Below, in pieces: positions 6,663 to 13,250 of a stretch of 47,513 nt of DNA. Numbering within the stretch: the first letter of the stretch is position 1; each line of letters opens with the position of its first letter. The DNA lies in assembly GCA_002863145.1 (NCBI GenBank), contig PKDW01000006.1, positions 1 through 47,513 of the forward strand, written 5' to 3'. The notes below the pieces were generated by a model. The model was not told the DNA's origin. It searched no databases and saw only the letters and a program-made list of their open reading frames with translations. The stretch is from Flavobacteriales bacterium. GTDB lineage: Bacteria; Bacteroidota; Bacteroidia; Flavobacteriales_D; Sanyastnellaceae. A program made the translations under genes and the position numbers.

Positions 6663-7705
6663 TGGCGGGTCAAAGTCCGCGCTCTGTCTCAATCCAAGCA
6701 GGTACAGCCGTAGGCTTGCTGACCTTGTTCGCCGTGGGAATTGCCCTGCGGACGGACAATGTAAGTGACCAGTGGTGGCTTCCGCCCCTCTCTGGACTTG
6801 TGGTCGGCGGGGTCTGCTACATGCTCGTCTACCGACAAGTGGGCGTCTACATCCAGGAACGCGTTCGCATCATCTACAAGACCATTCGTCGTTTCAAAGG
6901 ATCGAGCAGCAACCTGAACCTCGACATGAGCAGCGACATCGTGGAGCAGGTCAACCAAGATGTCATGGCTTGGGCCGAATCTCAAATTGACGAAATCACC
7001 AACCTCCGGGAGACGGACACGTTTCGGAAAGAATTCATCGGCAACCTGGCCCATGAATTGAAAACGCCCATCTTCAACATCCAAGGCTTCATCCTCACCC
7101 TGTTGGAAGGGGGCATGGAAGACCCCGAAATCAACCGGAAATTTCTGTTGAAGGCGGCCAAAAATGTCGATCGCATGTCGGGTCTTCTCGAAGACCTTGA
7201 CGTCATCACGAAAATGGAAGCCGGCAACCTCGACATCGAGTTGGTGCCTTTTGACTTGCTCGACATTTTGCGTGAAACCATCGAGAGTCTCGAACCCAAA
7301 GCCAAGCGCAACAACATCGAGTTGCGCATCACCAAAGGCATGGATGGCTCCAAAGTGATGGTCCTCGGCGATGCCGCCAAACTCGTTCAGGTCTTGACCA
7401 ACCTCATCGTCAACAGCATCAACTACGGCAACGAAGGGGGACAGACAGTGGTGCGCTACTACGACGCCGAAGACAGCATTTTGGTGGAAGTCGCAGACAC
7501 AGGCATTGGCATTCGGGAAGAACACTTGCCGCGGGTGTTCGAGCGATTCTATCGGGTGGACAAATCGCGTTCTCGCCATGCAGGCGGCTCGGGCTTGGGG
7601 TTGGCCATTTGCAAGCACATCATTGAGACGCACGGCCAAACCATCAACGTGCGCAGCACTTACGGCGAGGGATCAACGTTCAGCTTCACGCTGGAGAAGG
7701 CCTGA
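6662..7705 (+). CDS. PhoR-like sensor histidine kinase
   Basis: A 347-residue membrane kinase paired with the preceding regulator; the TGATG junction overlaps by one base, which favours translational coupling. Two transmembrane segments lie near residues 12-30 and 39-57 with almost no periplasmic loop, so the signal is probably sensed in the membrane or by a partner. The phosphoacceptor is His131 in LAHELKTPIFNIQGF. The ATP-binding domain has the N box (NLIVNSINYG), G1 (DTGIGI), the F box (FERFYRVDKSRSR) and G2 (GSGLGLAIC). There is no PAS domain. The last 33 bases overlap the 3' end of the opposite-strand hydrolase gene. Confidence 0.92.
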   Translation: MAGQSPRSVSIQAGTAVGLLTLFAVGIALRTDNVSDQWWLPPLSGLVVGGVCYMLVYRQVGVYIQERVRIIYKTIRRFKGSSSNLNLDMSSDIVEQVNQDVMAWAESQIDEITNLRETDTFRKEFIGNLAHELKTPIFNIQGFILTLLEGGMEDPEINRKFLLKAAKNVDRMSGLLEDLDVITKMEAGNLDIELVPFDLLDILRETIESLEPKAKRNNIELRITKGMDGSKVMVLGDAAKLVQVLTNLIVNSINYGNEGGQTVVRYYDAEDSILVEVADTGIGIREEHLPRVFERFYRVDKSRSRHAGGSGLGLAICKHIIETHGQTINVRSTYGEGSTFSFTLEKA

Positions 7706-8344
7706 CCCCGCCGCATTCACAAAGGGATTGCCTTGTTTCTCCGCGCCCACTGTGGTGGCCCCTCCGTGACCAGGCCACACCACCATGTCGTCGGGCAACG
7801 TGTAGAATTGAGTCAGGATGCTTGTCACCAAATCCGGGGCGTGGCTGCCGGGCAGGTCAGTTCGGCCGATGCTTCCCTCAAACAACACGTCGCCACCGAT
7901 CGTCCACCCGTGCTCGTGGCACACAAAGGCCACATGGCCCGGCGCATGACCCGGGACAAACCGCACCTCAAGCTGCGCTTGGCCACAGTCGATGACCTCC
8001 CCCGGCACCAAATCCATCACCACGTCCGGCAGAGGATCCATGGAAACCCCATACATCTGGGCCGCAATGGGGCCGCGACGGTACGTCTCTTCATCAAGGG
8101 GATGCATGCGCGGAGGCAGTCCGTACGTGTCCTTCATCCACTGGCATCCCATGACGTGGTCGAGGTGGCCGTGCGTCAACAACACCTGGGCCGGTTGCCC
8201 GCCCAAGGAGTCGCAGATGCGTTGAAATGCCTCTCTTTCCTGCGGTGAGGCCATGCCCGGATCGACCACCGTCAATGAACCATTTCCGTGATCCACAACA
8301 TAGGTTTGCTCTCCAAACACGTTGCATGTAAGTGGTTGCACCAT
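7673..8344 (-). CDS. Metallo-beta-lactamase-fold hydrolase (glyoxalase II-like)
   Basis: A 223-residue cytoplasmic hydrolase. The metal site motif THGHLDH is complete (His58, His60, Asp62, His63), followed by VPGHAPGH (His133), GGDVLF (Asp152) and VWPGHG (His193). The family hydrolyses thioesters such as hydroxyacylglutathione or related substrates; the natural substrate is unknown. Met at 8344 is used because the longer frame runs into the divergent gene. The terminal GNPFV motif is typical of the family. The gene's 3' end overlaps the histidine kinase gene convergently by 33 bp. Confidence 0.88.
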   Translation of the reverse strand: MVQPLTCNVFGEQTYVVDHGNGSLTVVDPGMASPQEREAFQRICDSLGGQPAQVLLTHGHLDHVMGCQWMKDTYGLPPRMHPLDEETYRRGPIAAQMYGVSMDPLPDVVMDLVPGEVIDCGQAQLEVRFVPGHAPGHVAFVCHEHGWTIGGDVLFEGSIGRTDLPGSHAPDLVTSILTQFYTLPDDMVVWPGHGGATTVGAEKQGNPFVNAAGSGLLQREAER

Positions 8345-8397
8345 GGGGCGTAATTTCGGGAAGAATGTTTGGCCTCCTCCATCTTCTCCCTCTTGAA

Positions 8398-11300
8398 ATG
8401 CGCCGTGTTGGCGTGGCGCTCGCATGGCTGTGCATGTGCATGACCGGAGGGGCGGCTTGGGGACAATTCACCGACGGCATCAACGTCGAGTTTGGCAAAA
8501 ACCGGGTTCAATACCGCACCTTCGAGTGGCAGTATTTCGAACAAGGTCTGTTCGAGGTGTATCACTACCGAGAGGTGGACCAAATCGCCGGGCAAGTCGC
8601 ACGCATTTTGGAGGAGGAAGCCAAGGATTTGGGAGCGGTGTTTGGGCGGACGTTGGAAGGGCCGGTTCAGGTGTTGGTCTTCAAATCGCAAGAGGAATTC
8701 CGCCAGAGCAATGTAGGCATCATGACGTCCCAGGATTCGGAAACCAACATCGGTGGAACGGCACGACTCGTGGGAAGCAAGATGTTTCTATACGGCACAG
8801 GCGACCGGCTCAGGTTGGAACGCGACGTCCGAGAAGGTCTCGCCCGCATTCTGTTCAACCAGACGATGTACGACAGCCAGTGGACGGAGAGTTTGCGAAG
8901 TGGCAACCTGGTTCAAGTGCCGGAGTGGATGTCGGAGGGTGCCGCCCGCTACGCCGCGCGAGGCCTCGATGCCGAGAGCGAAAACCGCATCCTCGACGCC
9001 TGCCAAACAGGGGCGTTCCAGCGGTTGGACCAAAGTTCGGGGTTGGAAGCGGCAGTGCTTGGACAGGCGGTTTGGTCCTATGTGGCAGAAATCTACGGCA
9101 TGCCCACGATCGCCAACGTCCTGTACATGACCCGGATCACCCGAAGTGTGGAGAGTGGGTTCCGCCTGGCCACCGGGTTTTATCTGGACGATTTGGCTGC
9201 GGAAGTGCGGGGCTATCACTTGCGGCACGCCCCGCGAGGGCACGCAGCGTCCCTGCCTCCGCTGGAAAGCCCCAAGGCCAGGCGAATGGCTGAACGCTCT
9301 GCGGGCGACGCCATTCCCATGCGCCTGCGACGTCGATTCGAATACACCCAGTTCGTGCCTTCGCCAGACGGCAAACACGTGGCCTTCACCACCAACGAGC
9401 GCGGACAATTGCGGGTGGGCACCCTCGAACTGGAAAGCGGCAAACACACCTGGCATGCCACCCTCGGTCACCGCCTGGCGCGACTCGAGAACGATCTGCA
9501 TCCACGCGTGGCGTGGCACCCCGAGGGACGCACCTTGGCCTTCGCCACCGAATTGCAGGGTGCTCCACACCTCGGTTTGGTGAGCATGCGAACAGGCGAG
9601 GTGCAACTCCGAGAACTGTTCAAAATCGACCAGGTTCTGGACATGAGTTACTCGCCCAACGGAGCGTTCCTGCTCATGTCTGCCCTTGAAGACGGGCAAT
9701 CCGACTTGTACCGGTACGACGTGGTGGCCAACAACCAACGGCCCCTGTGGCGGGATCGATTCGACGACTTGCATCCGGCGTTTTGGGGCGAGGGCGCAGA
9801 CTTCATTTTTGCCTCCAACCGGCCCGACGACACCCTGCGCAACGACCGGCTGGACCACCCCTTCCCCGCCAACCTCGATTTGTACGTCGGCAACTTGAAC
9901 GATGACCCGATCACCCTGGAGCGCTGGACCCACACCCCCGAGGTGGACGAGCGTCATCCTCAGCCCCTGTCGCAAGAAGAATTCACCTACCTCCGAAATG
10001 AAGAGGGCTTGAACACCCGACTGGGGTTGGGCTGGCGCGACAGCAGCATTGTGGCCATCGACACGGTGGTGCGCTACCGGACCTTCACCCAGCTCCGCGA
10101 CGCCTTGGTCCTTCCGGTGCCTGCAACAAATGCGACCGTCCACGGTGACACCCTGTGGGTGGCCACAGAGCGGGCAGGCCAAACCAACGTGCTGCCTCTC
10201 CCAATGCCGGAGGTGTCTCAAATTCACTTGCAACCCTCCGTGGTCCCAAAAGCTGCGACCGAGACCCTTCCCTACCCCATCGAATTGCCCGATTGGTCTC
10301 GGTCCTGGAACGACCGGCAGATCGACTACCGGAACTACGTGTTCGAACGCGAAAAGAACACCGTTGCTCCGGACACGGTTGCGGGTGCGGATCTTGAAGA
10401 ACAGGTGAAAGAGTGGGGGCGTCTTACCCCTAGGAATTACCGTTTGAACTACGCGTTGGACAAACTCCAAACGCAACTGAACAACACCTTTGGCACGTCC
10501 TTCTATCAGCCGTACAACGGCCAGGTGAATGCACAGCCGGGATTGGGAAATGCCACAGAAATCCGAATCAGCGACGTGATGGACGACCGCCACATTGTCG
10601 GCGGCTACACCATTCCTGTGAACCTGTCGAACACCTTCTTTGGGCTGGCGTTCTTGAATTTGGAGGGACAGGTGGACAAAGAAATCTCGTTCCAACGCCA
10701 ATCAAGCGCGCGCCTGGATGCCGGCACCGGCCAACTCGTGGAAACGGCCACGCATCTGTTGCGACGGGAGTGGCGTTGGGCTTTTGATGAGGTTCGCAGC
10801 CTGCGATGGGGACTGGCCGCCCGCTTCAACCGGGATGTCATTCAGGGGACGGATTTGTTCTCCTTGACCGCCGACAACAACACCGGTGAGCAACTCGGCC
10901 TTCAGGTCGCCTGGGTGCACGACGACACCCGAAGTCCACGGCTCAACATCCACCATGGATTCCGTGCCCGTGTGTGGGCCGAGTATTTTGTCGATGGCGT
11001 GGGCACGGCCTCTACGAATGCCAACGGGCTGACCACCCCGGAACAGGGATGGTCGTTTGGCACGGTCGGCTTCGACGCCCGCAGGTACATTCCCTTGGTC
11101 GGGCCCAGCATCCTCGCGTTGCGCATGGCCGGAGACTGGTCCATTGGCCAAAAGAAGTTGCTCCACATGCTGGGCGGCACGGACAACAGCTTGTCCATCG
11201 CGGGCAATGCCAACACGCCTGTGGACCCTGACATTCCCTACACCTACCAGGCGCGCATCACCCCGTTGCGGGGATTCCAAAACAACGTGCGCAACGGCGC

Positions 11301-11649
11301 CAACGTCGCCGTGGCCAACGCCGAAATCCGCTTTCCCTTCTTCTTCAACAGTGCGGGCAAGTCGGACTTCTTGAAACACCTGCAAGCGGTGGCCTTTGCT
11401 GATGTCGGTGCCGCTTGGACAGGGCTGCACCCCTACACCGACGACAACACATTCAACGTCGTCACCGTGGAAGCCAACCCCATCACGGTCACCGTGAACA
11501 ACAACCGCGAACCGATTTTGTATGACCTTGGATTTGGCCTGAGGTCCCGTTTCTTGGGCTATTGGCTCGCGGCCGATTGGGCCTACGGCGTGGACGATGG
11601 CATCACCTTGCCCCGCCGTTTTACCTTGTCCCTGAACTTCGATTTCTGA
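8398..11649 (+). CDS. Large exported protein: protease-like domain, TolB-like propeller, outer-membrane barrel
   Basis: A 1083-residue protein with a signal peptide ending near AAWG|Q (residues 1-22). Residues 24-290 resemble the non-catalytic frame of a gluzincin-type peptidase (VPEWMSEGAARYAARG, then a helical repeat), but no HExxH is present. Residues 310-600 carry propeller repeats of the TolB/WD40 type, such as FVPSPDGKHVAFTTNERG, WHPEGRTLAFATEL and SYSPNGAFLLMSAL. From about 670 the sequence turns into alternating amphipathic strands ending RFTLSLNFDF, as in a BamA/Omp85-like barrel. It is probably in the outer membrane with the propeller in the periplasm. The ATG at 8398 was chosen because it begins the signal peptide. 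Function unknown. Confidence 0.82.
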   Translation: MRRVGVALAWLCMCMTGGAAWGQFTDGINVEFGKNRVQYRTFEWQYFEQGLFEVYHYREVDQIAGQVARILEEEAKDLGAVFGRTLEGPVQVLVFKSQEEFRQSNVGIMTSQDSETNIGGTARLVGSKMFLYGTGDRLRLERDVREGLARILFNQTMYDSQWTESLRSGNLVQVPEWMSEGAARYAARGLDAESENRILDACQTGAFQRLDQSSGLEAAVLGQAVWSYVAEIYGMPTIANVLYMTRITRSVESGFRLATGFYLDDLAAEVRGYHLRHAPRGHAASLPPLESPKARRMAERSAGDAIPMRLRRRFEYTQFVPSPDGKHVAFTTNERGQLRVGTLELESGKHTWHATLGHRLARLENDLHPRVAWHPEGRTLAFATELQGAPHLGLVSMRTGEVQLRELFKIDQVLDMSYSPNGAFLLMSALEDGQSDLYRYDVVANNQRPLWRDRFDDLHPAFWGEGADFIFASNRPDDTLRNDRLDHPFPANLDLYVGNLNDDPITLERWTHTPEVDERHPQPLSQEEFTYLRNEEGLNTRLGLGWRDSSIVAIDTVVRYRTFTQLRDALVLPVPATNATVHGDTLWVATERAGQTNVLPLPMPEVSQIHLQPSVVPKAATETLPYPIELPDWSRSWNDRQIDYRNYVFEREKNTVAPDTVAGADLEEQVKEWGRLTPRNYRLNYALDKLQTQLNNTFGTSFYQPYNGQVNAQPGLGNATEIRISDVMDDRHIVGGYTIPVNLSNTFFGLAFLNLEGQVDKEISFQRQSSARLDAGTGQLVETATHLLRREWRWAFDEVRSLRWGLAARFNRDVIQGTDLFSLTADNNTGEQLGLQVAWVHDDTRSPRLNIHHGFRARVWAEYFVDGVGTASTNANGLTTPEQGWSFGTVGFDARRYIPLVGPSILALRMAGDWSIGQKKLLHMLGGTDNSLSIAGNANTPVDPDIPYTYQARITPLRGFQNNVRNGANVAVANAEIRFPFFFNSAGKSDFLKHLQAVAFADVGAAWTGLHPYTDDNTFNVVTVEANPITVTVNNNREPILYDLGFGLRSRFLGYWLAADWAYGVDDGITLPRRFTLSLNFDF

Positions 11650-11652
11650 TCC

Positions 11653-12057
11653 ATGCCACTCGACCCCCTCACCCTGATCTCCCTCTTGGCCATCGGCCTG
11701 TTTGCCGGCATTGCATCGGGCTTGGTCGGTGTGGGAGGCGGCCTCATTCTCGTGCCTGCCATGATGGCGTTTCTCGGGTTGGGTCAACACGCCGCGCAGG
11801 GCACGAGCCTGGCCATGATGCTTCCCCCTGTGGGCATCCTCGCCGTGATGCAGTACCACCGTGCCGGCGAGGTGCATTGGTCCTTTGCGGCAGTCCTTTG
11901 CGTGACGTTTGTCGCAGGCGCGTGGGCCGGGTCCAAATGGAGTCTGAAACTCTCCGAAGCGTGGGTCAAGCTCGCGTTTGGCGCTGTCATGCTGTACGCC
12001 TCCTGCCGGATGCTCTGCACCGCCTGGTCCCAACTCAAACCCACCCTGTTTCCATGA
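11653..12057 (+). CDS. Half-size TauE/SafE-family membrane protein
   Basis: A 134-residue protein with about four transmembrane segments. It carries the TauE/SafE signature GVGGGLILVPAMM near residues 26-38, repeated in family members as the core of each half. Full-length members (about 250 residues) have two such halves and export sulfite, sulfonates or similar anions. This one has only the first half and would need to dimerise. It starts 3 bp after the large outer-membrane gene, and its stop overlaps the start of the M20 gene (ATGA), which indicates one operon. The transported compound is unknown. Confidence 0.78.
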   Translation: MPLDPLTLISLLAIGLFAGIASGLVGVGGGLILVPAMMAFLGLGQHAAQGTSLAMMLPPVGILAVMQYHRAGEVHWSFAAVLCVTFVAGAWAGSKWSLKLSEAWVKLAFGAVMLYASCRMLCTAWSQLKPTLFP

Positions 12058-13250
12058 CCCTTCAATCGCGCATCCAATCGTTGTCGGAGACGTTTCATCC
12101 GGAATGGGTTGCCCTCCGCCGCCACCTTCATGCCCATCCTGAACTTTCGTTCCAAGAGCATGAAACCATGGCCTTTGTCTCCAAGCAACTTACCGCGTGG
12201 GGTGTGGAACACCAAACCCACGTGACAGACACCGGCATTGTGGCCCACGTGAAAGGAACGGATCCCGAGTCGCGTCTGGTCGCGCTTCGGGCCGACATGG
12301 ATGCCTTGCCCATTCAGGAGGCCAATGATGTGCCGTATGCGTCCACGCGACCAGGGGTCATGCACGCATGCGGACACGACGTGCACACCACGTCCCTTCT
12401 TGGCGCGATTCAATTGCTCCAAGCGACGCGCGAAGCATGGAAGGGCACGGTACGCTGCATCTTCCAGCCTGGAGAAGAGCGCATTCCCGGAGGCGCCAAG
12501 GGCATGGTAGCGGCAGGCGTGCTGGCCAGTCCCGCGCCGGCCCACATTTTGGGCCAACACGTGTACCCGCAATTGCCCGCCGGACACGTCGGCGTTCGCG
12601 AAGGGGCCTACATGGCCGCAGCGGATGAAATTCACTTGACCGTTCGCGGCCAAGGGGGGCACGCCGCCCTGCCCCATTTGTGCAAGGACGCGGTCCTCGC
12701 CTCCTCCGCAATCATCGTGGCTGCCCAACAGGCCATTTCCAGAATGTGCCCTCCGGGTGTGGCATCGGTGCTCTCGTTTGGCCGCGTGGAAGCCTTGGGC
12801 GCCACGAACGTGCTCCCGCACAGCGTCGACATCCAAGGCACCTTCCGCTCCATGGATGAAACATGGCGAAAACGCGCACATGACCTCATCACCACCTTGG
12901 TCCACAGCACCGCGCAAGCGCACGGATGTGTGGCCGATTTGGACATCCGTCACGGCTATCCGCACGTGCACAACGATGTGCATTTGGCCGCGGAATTCAA
13001 ACAAGCCGCCATCGCATACCTCGGGGCCGACCGCGTCCACGACCTCGGCATTCGGATGACCGCCGAAGACTTCAGCTACTTCGCCAACGAAGTTCCAGGA
13101 TGCTTCTATCGTTTGGGGACAGCCTCCCCAGAAGAAGGGAACGACCTCGGCACCCAAGGGCTTCACACCCCCACCTTCGATGTGGACGAGAACGCTTTGA
13201 AGATCGGGGCGGGACTCATGGCCTATGCAGCCGCCACCGTGGAGCGGTAG
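12054..13250 (+). CDS. M20-family amidohydrolase (N-acyl-amino-acid / hippurate hydrolase type)
   Basis: A 398-residue metallopeptidase-fold amidohydrolase. Family members remove acyl groups from N-acyl amino acids. The di-metal site is visible: MHACGHDVH (Cys106, His108), FQPGEER (Glu141/Glu142), GQHVYP (His169) and a late LHTPTFDVDE. The lid domain lies between, with GQGGHAALPH near residues 205-214. The ATG at 12054 overlaps the TauE/SafE stop codon by 4 nt; the longer frame upstream lies inside the previous gene and is discarded. No signal peptide, so cytoplasmic. A weak hairpin follows before the convergent recQ. Confidence 0.9.
   Translation: MTLQSRIQSLSETFHPEWVALRRHLHAHPELSFQEHETMAFVSKQLTAWGVEHQTHVTDTGIVAHVKGTDPESRLVALRADMDALPIQEANDVPYASTRPGVMHACGHDVHTTSLLGAIQLLQATREAWKGTVRCIFQPGEERIPGGAKGMVAAGVLASPAPAHILGQHVYPQLPAGHVGVREGAYMAAADEIHLTVRGQGGHAALPHLCKDAVLASSAIIVAAQQAISRMCPPGVASVLSFGRVEALGATNVLPHSVDIQGTFRSMDETWRKRAHDLITTLVHSTAQAHGCVADLDIRHGYPHVHNDVHLAAEFKQAAIAYLGADRVHDLGIRMTAEDFSYFANEVPGCFYRLGTASPEEGNDLGTQGLHTPTFDVDENALKIGAGLMAYAAATVER

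Follow-up and report, generated by a model that had tools for sequence, protein, structure and literature searches.

The window, by which we mean the whole 47,513-nucleotide stretch of DNA that was analyzed, belongs to a genome of 2.14 Mb in 187 contigs. At positions 8398 to 11,649 of its plus strand it carries an ORF for a protein of 1083 aa that is open in translation table 11. In-frame starts upstream of 8398 are possible at 8332 (GTG) and 8365 (ATG); a start at 8398 yields a signal peptide that ends before Gln23. This probable Sec signal peptide (residues 1–22; positions 8398–8463) is bounded by Q23 and F24, which are nearly invariant in 23 relatives, and we take its cleavage before Gln23 to follow the "Q-rule." From models and fold searches, the coding sequence is predicted to join a pseudo-peptidase, a TolB-type propeller, and an Omp85 barrel, all on the same strand. 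When the window protein was compared alone with Pfam, each of these parts gave a match below threshold: Peptidase_MA_2 at residues 172–268 (E 0.056, 13.7 bits versus a cut-off of 32.4), PD40 at 319–337 (18.6 bits versus 20.9), and Omp85 at 825–1018 (E 8.4e-5, 22.7 bits versus 24). The three-part reading therefore needed structures. A full-length AlphaFold2 model built from 23 sequences had a mean pLDDT of 74.9 and a pTM of 0.57.

Three base pairs past the stop codon lies a gene for a half-size TauE/SafE protein of 134 aa (positions 11,653–12,057, plus strand), which matches PF01925 over positions 1–111 of 237 (E 7e-23), is the only copy found in this genome, and may work as a dimer. It is followed by a gene for an M20-type amidohydrolase of 390 aa (12,078–13,250, plus strand; TIGR01891 E 4.9e-98, above cut-off). 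On the other side, a divergent gene for an MBL-fold hydrolase (7673–8425, minus strand) is conserved at position −1. As listed, this last ORF overlaps the start of the 1083-residue ORF by 28 bp, and an internal ATG near 8344 is probably its true start. An earlier note on this DNA had placed the gene in an operon with the TauE half and the amidohydrolase, and the adjacency is indeed common to most relatives from this order whose loci allowed a check. Where a Bacteroidia locus extends at least 2.2 kb downstream, the TauE half comes next in 45 of 63 cases, an amidohydrolase gene lies nearby in 43, and the two occur together in 33, and the divergent MBL-fold gene occurs at 40 of 61 Bacteroidia loci with enough upstream sequence; these counts are lower bounds owing to mechanical ORF calling, and the loci are not independent. 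The gap to the TauE gene is −1 to +12 bp in 38 of the 52 loci in which it was measured. The TauE/amidohydrolase pair was not found beside the gene in deeper families of the class (20 loci, two of them from another class), the one exception being a longer TauE-like frame 620 bp away at locus L214.

The N-terminal domain (residues 40–290; positions 8515–9267) is predicted to be a gluzincin-type peptidase domain that is catalytically dead. Modeled alone (residues 24–302, 91 sequences), it reached a pLDDT of 87 and a pTM of 0.84, and in a fold search of the PDB its best matches were zinc gluzincins. These comprised Vibrio-type collagenase units (Z 15.8, rmsd 4.1, 233 residues), lugdulysin (Z 14.6), and aminopeptidases N (Z about 13), which we take to represent families M9, M30, and M1, respectively. 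All five Foldseek matches at E ≤ 0.001 were clostridial collagenase peptidase domains. Profile searches of the domain against PDB sequences returned no match. Alignment with relatives confirmed the absence of an HExxH motif, which had been noticed at the outset: the site (positions 8833–8847) reads E146 G147 L148 A149 R150, so that E146, G147, and R150 stand at the homologous positions. In the region of the third zinc ligand (positions 8935–8949), E180 is retained and an arginine takes the place of E184 of active relatives. The window protein thus has the predicted gluzincin fold and lacks the combination of HExxH and downstream Glu that marks an active enzyme. Residues 119–132 (positions 8752–8793) form a putative edge strand in which G119 and G120 are conserved. 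We take this strand, by analogy with other gluzincins, to be the one that binds substrate, a role that we infer from that analogy.

Residues 300–605 (positions 9295–10,212) are predicted to form a TolB-type β-propeller. TolB was matched at residues 322–492 by phmmer against PDB sequences (E 3e-8), and residues of about 295–606 matched its structure with a Z of 21.4 over about 240 residues, in agreement with Foldseek. The score against the TolB family TIGR02800, 49 bits, lies below the curated cut-off of 343. A linker of about 110 residues follows (606–717; positions 10,213–10,548), which in the full-length model is mostly of low confidence and has almost no regular structure. No POTRA family was found by Pfam at E ≤ 1, nor were POTRA-like elements seen in the modeled linker, and none of the matches listed by the fold searches was a POTRA domain. 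The remainder of the chain (718–1083; positions 10,549–11,646) is a predicted Omp85 barrel with RGF at 958–960, FxDxG at 1000–1004, and a C-terminal Phe. Residues 710–1083 matched the BamA barrel of Deinococcus (Z 21.5, rmsd 4.1, 309 residues) and the BamA proteins of F. johnsoniae and P. gingivalis (Z 19–20.5), again in agreement with Foldseek. The peptidase fold at one end and the barrel at the other, on which the reading of a three-part chain in the earlier note depended, were thus both recovered by structure models and fold searches.

The L6 (V/I)RG(F/Y) and FxDxG sequences, which we take to be motifs of the Omp85 superfamily, are both present, together with a barrel homologous to that of BamA. 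Across 46 Bacteroidia family members that lack HExxH (hereafter dead rows), the signature residues are conserved at 1.00 for R958, 1.00 for G959, 0.89 for F960, 0.98 for F1000, 1.00 for D1002, and 1.00 for G1004. Profiles of the barrels from active and dead members matched BamA barrels with probabilities of 98.9% and 97.1%. The same comparison, in which the reference groups of BamA, TamL, and TamA-like barrels were labeled by gene length and place, indicated Omp85 kinship and did not put the family nearer to any one of these groups. The protein shares its Omp85 barrel with BamA, TamA, and TamL, but it has a propeller and a pseudo-peptidase where those proteins have periplasmic POTRA domains, none being seen here by Pfam or in the model. 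It likewise resembles TolB in the fold of its propeller but differs in being fused to a barrel and in scoring far below the cut-off of the TolB family.

A match to the protein was present in 57 of 60 sampled relatives, up to the level of order, which rules out that the gene is an oddity of its clade. Across the phylum, 359 of 395 genomes match at E ≤ 0.001, a count that includes weak TolB-type and paralogue matches. Within the same class, matches occur in 69 genomes. Those stronger than 1e-80 number 33 and fall entirely within families f1, f15, f18, f19, f20, and f21; the 36 weaker ones are confined to f14, f16, f17, f22, and f23.

The state of the zinc site follows the class. Of 137 aligned rows from Bacteroidia, some of whose genomes are present twice, 127 lack HExxH (L196 still being included), five do not cover the motif, and five have it. 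Among 71 rows from other classes, 67 have HExxH and the downstream Glu, and four lack the motif. The five Bacteroidia rows with HExxH form a second, paralogous clade (L164, L166, L169, L201, and L208) in which the motif is intact as HELVH or HEMVH. This version is present in family f14 of the class, in which no dead-type protein was seen. Two of the four other-class rows without the motif, L199 and L202, are non-members; L158 and L159 make up a separate small clade. These last two sequences, from family f59 of another class, record a second, independent loss of HExxH (RELAL and RELTR) with the downstream Glu retained. L196, L199, L200, L202, and L209, which proved to be other propeller proteins or misaligned, were rejected as family members and removed before tree counts, as were the truncated rows L010, L025, and L095. 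Once non-members and truncated rows, and then near-copies, had been taken out, the set shrank from 208 to 200 and then to 152 rows, and 116 of these were used, the rows of the order being randomly sampled.

In the 116-row set, 46 Bacteroidia rows lack HExxH and three have it, and in other classes 65 have it and two lack it. A tree computed from this set without the active-site columns places the 46 dead Bacteroidia rows on one side of a branch with an SH-aLRT of 100 and calls for two state changes. A 60-row tree, from which the long branches L197, L198, L203, L205, and L030 were left out, again gives two state changes, and its dead clade has a bootstrap of 100 and an SH-aLRT of 100. The trees are unrooted, and we read the direction of change as loss because the full motif belongs to the peptidase superfamily and a match to Peptidase_MA_2 (PF13485; best E 8.4e-17) was obtained for each of 31 active N-domains. 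Local decay or sequencing error is ruled out as the origin of the missing motif, since the 46 dead rows come from many families and form one clade. As judged from these alignments and trees, the zinc site was lost once, anciently, in the class to which the window belongs.

Loss of the site has not left the domain free to drift. The 45 active rows of clade A, all from other classes, show no variation at H146, E147, H150, E180, or E184. When the 251 N-domain columns are ranked by conservation in the 46 dead rows, columns 146, 147, 150, and 180 come 195th, 91st, 135th, and 155th, and G33, R36, W44, S104, N105, P175, W177, G181, and W226 are invariant. The glycines of the putative edge strand, G119 and G120, are conserved at 0.83 and 0.89 in the dead rows versus 0.98 and 1.00 in the 45 active rows. 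Mean conservation of the N-domain is 0.49 in dead versus 0.67 in active rows, so some relaxation is likely as well. The barrel is the least variable part of the protein, and nonsynonymous divergence is lower in the N-domain than in the propeller in all eight same-genus pairs. The dN/dS of the N-domain was 0.05 to 0.18 in the eight same-genus comparisons, ratios that are rough, with synonymous sites near saturation. On this pattern of substitution, the dead N-domain is evidently still under purifying selection.

In other classes, the gene lies in a different setting. Of 20 other-class loci with long flanks, 12 have an RNase R gene immediately upstream in the same orientation, as do seven further loci with short flanks. 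Wherever RNase R is at −1 and enough sequence lies upstream, TamB is at −2 (11 of 11 loci). In these loci (L170, L171, L174, L175, L176, L178, L180, L181, L184, L185, and L187), TamB, RNase R, and the active-type gene share one orientation. PF04357 itself supports the TamB assignment for most of the 11; L175, L187, and L181 have no Pfam match, and their assignment comes from a cluster profile that contained L175 and L187. The same genomes also hold further Omp85 proteins. In the window's genome, TamB is on another contig and there are two other Omp85 genes, so the association with TamB may not extend to this genome. In five genomes of Bacteroidia (G121, G137, G207, G428, and G444), a TamB match lies beside another Omp85 gene, of 760–835 aa.

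Part of this architecture has been described before. Heinz and Lithgow (2014; PMC4104836) reported a fusion of propeller and Omp85 barrel as the WD40-Omp85 subfamily, for which function is given as unknown and a part in protein assembly is suggested. Matched by description, our family agrees with theirs in having a TolB-like propeller N-terminal to a non-POTRA Omp85 barrel; the passages of the 2014 text that we consulted name no peptidase domain in it, and the "Metallo" subfamily there is a different one, with PF00149. No published description of the peptidase domain of this family was found in open-licence PMC papers, nor did term searches of papers on TamL and Bacteroidota BAM, in the portions available, return a passage on such a protein. 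The new elements are the recognition of a pseudo-peptidase domain, the evidence that it arose once, and the conserved order of genes with TamB. The self-contained periplasm-to-outer-membrane module proposed in the earlier note is not borne out: the protein is one of several Omp85 proteins in its genome, the fusion type was already known in 2014, and in other classes TamB is co-encoded, which suggests a partner rather than self-sufficiency.

Among known systems, gluzincins of the Peptidase_MA_2 type (PF13485) share the fold, and relatives from other classes have their full HExxH...E motif, but in the window protein HExxH is missing and the Pfam score falls short of the cut-off. BepA, an M48 protein of E. 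coli that acts on the BAM complex, is comparable in tying a zinc-peptidase-type fold to barrel assembly; its edge strand is reported to be needed both for proteolysis and for promoting LptD assembly (PMC8423444), and by analogy the strand of our domain could serve assembly in the same way. BepA differs in that it belongs to another peptidase family, is separate from the barrel, and is catalytically active.

The best reading of the dead peptidase part is that it became a binding domain, as the earlier note had surmised, because one ancient loss was followed by purifying selection and a conserved GG strand. For the whole protein, we favor, at a little under an even chance, an outer-membrane biogenesis factor whose dead protease domain has come to bind clients, in a manner comparable to BepA acting as a chaperone. 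It would be the pseudoenzyme form, spread through much of the class, of a phylum-wide outer-membrane family, with the barrel in the outer membrane and, if we have the membrane side right, the propeller and pseudo-peptidase in the periplasm. The metalloprotease domain of the ancestral active type would act on clients at the barrel by cutting or trimming them. The form in the window's class would have lost this cutting, and its peptidase groove and edge strand may still hold client polypeptide. Propeller and groove would take over from POTRA domains (and BamB) the task of bringing clients to the Omp85 barrel, to be inserted or passed through, in a chaperone-like way of the kind that E. coli BepA has in addition to its proteolysis. 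Client holding would be the simplest use of the domain that explains one ancient loss and then conservation, and the presence of TamB next to active-type genes likewise suggests a role in outer-membrane biogenesis. Weighing against this reading are the failure of sequence searches to find a solved relative of the N-domain, the place of TamB on another contig and the two other Omp85 genes in the window's genome, the silence on such a protein of the Bacteroidota BAM paper in term searches, and the lower conservation of G119, G120, and the whole N-domain in dead than in active rows. A more specific scenario, which we regard as doubtful, is that the family is a fused quality-control machine, an Omp85 barrel in which a built-in metalloprotease and a propeller stand where POTRA domains would be and which, in other classes, cooperates with TamB. 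Its protease would have been turned off once, early in the window's class, to leave a nonproteolytic outer-membrane chaperone that is near-universal there, and the family would then represent a pseudoenzyme transition, placed on a tree, inside an outer-membrane assembly factor.

Other uses of such a chain were weighed against client binding. The barrel might be an export device that passes its own propeller and pseudo-peptidase to the surface, where they would bind something outside, much as the Omp85 protein PlpD, whose N-terminal part is an enzyme domain, is described in the 2014 text (PMC4104836) as bringing that patatin domain to the surface. The apparent lack of POTRA would suit this arrangement, but TolB is periplasmic (PMC4104836) and the adjacency of TamB in active-type genomes suggests a periplasmic partner, and we consider export unlikely. 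Alternatively, the N-domain and propeller could merely anchor a passive barrel to some other complex of the envelope, such as Pal-like lipoproteins, and handle no clients. The zinc site is lost, the invariant residues are partly of a structural kind (W, G, and P), and TolB, which the propeller resembles, binds Pal according to PDB titles; the near-invariance of RG and FxDxG in the dead clade and the low variability of the barrel argue against a passive barrel, and such a scaffold, too, has in our estimate a low probability. The TamB gene order raises a further option: that TamB, in transporting lipid or protein, has this family as its partner in the outer membrane, and that the dead form has kept this partnership at a genomic distance. 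The order held in every locus where it could be assessed, and a second TamB was found by PF04357 in two of the 11 genomes (G081 and G126) and in none of the other nine, a weak point in favor given that PF04357 misses some TamB proteins. Against it stand the further Omp85 proteins of the same genomes and the TamB matches beside another Omp85 gene in the five Bacteroidia genomes, and we hold this option to be distinctly improbable.

An unstudied outer-membrane protein that is nearly universal in a large group of bacteria thus gains a concrete domain map and a testable role. With active and dead forms in one phylum, it offers a natural experiment on what use a protease domain is to a barrel once cutting is lost, and the gene order makes TamB a candidate partner to look for. 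In two other-class genomes (L245 and L246; G181 and G078), the family gene has an Omp85 gene of BamA size about 15 kb away.
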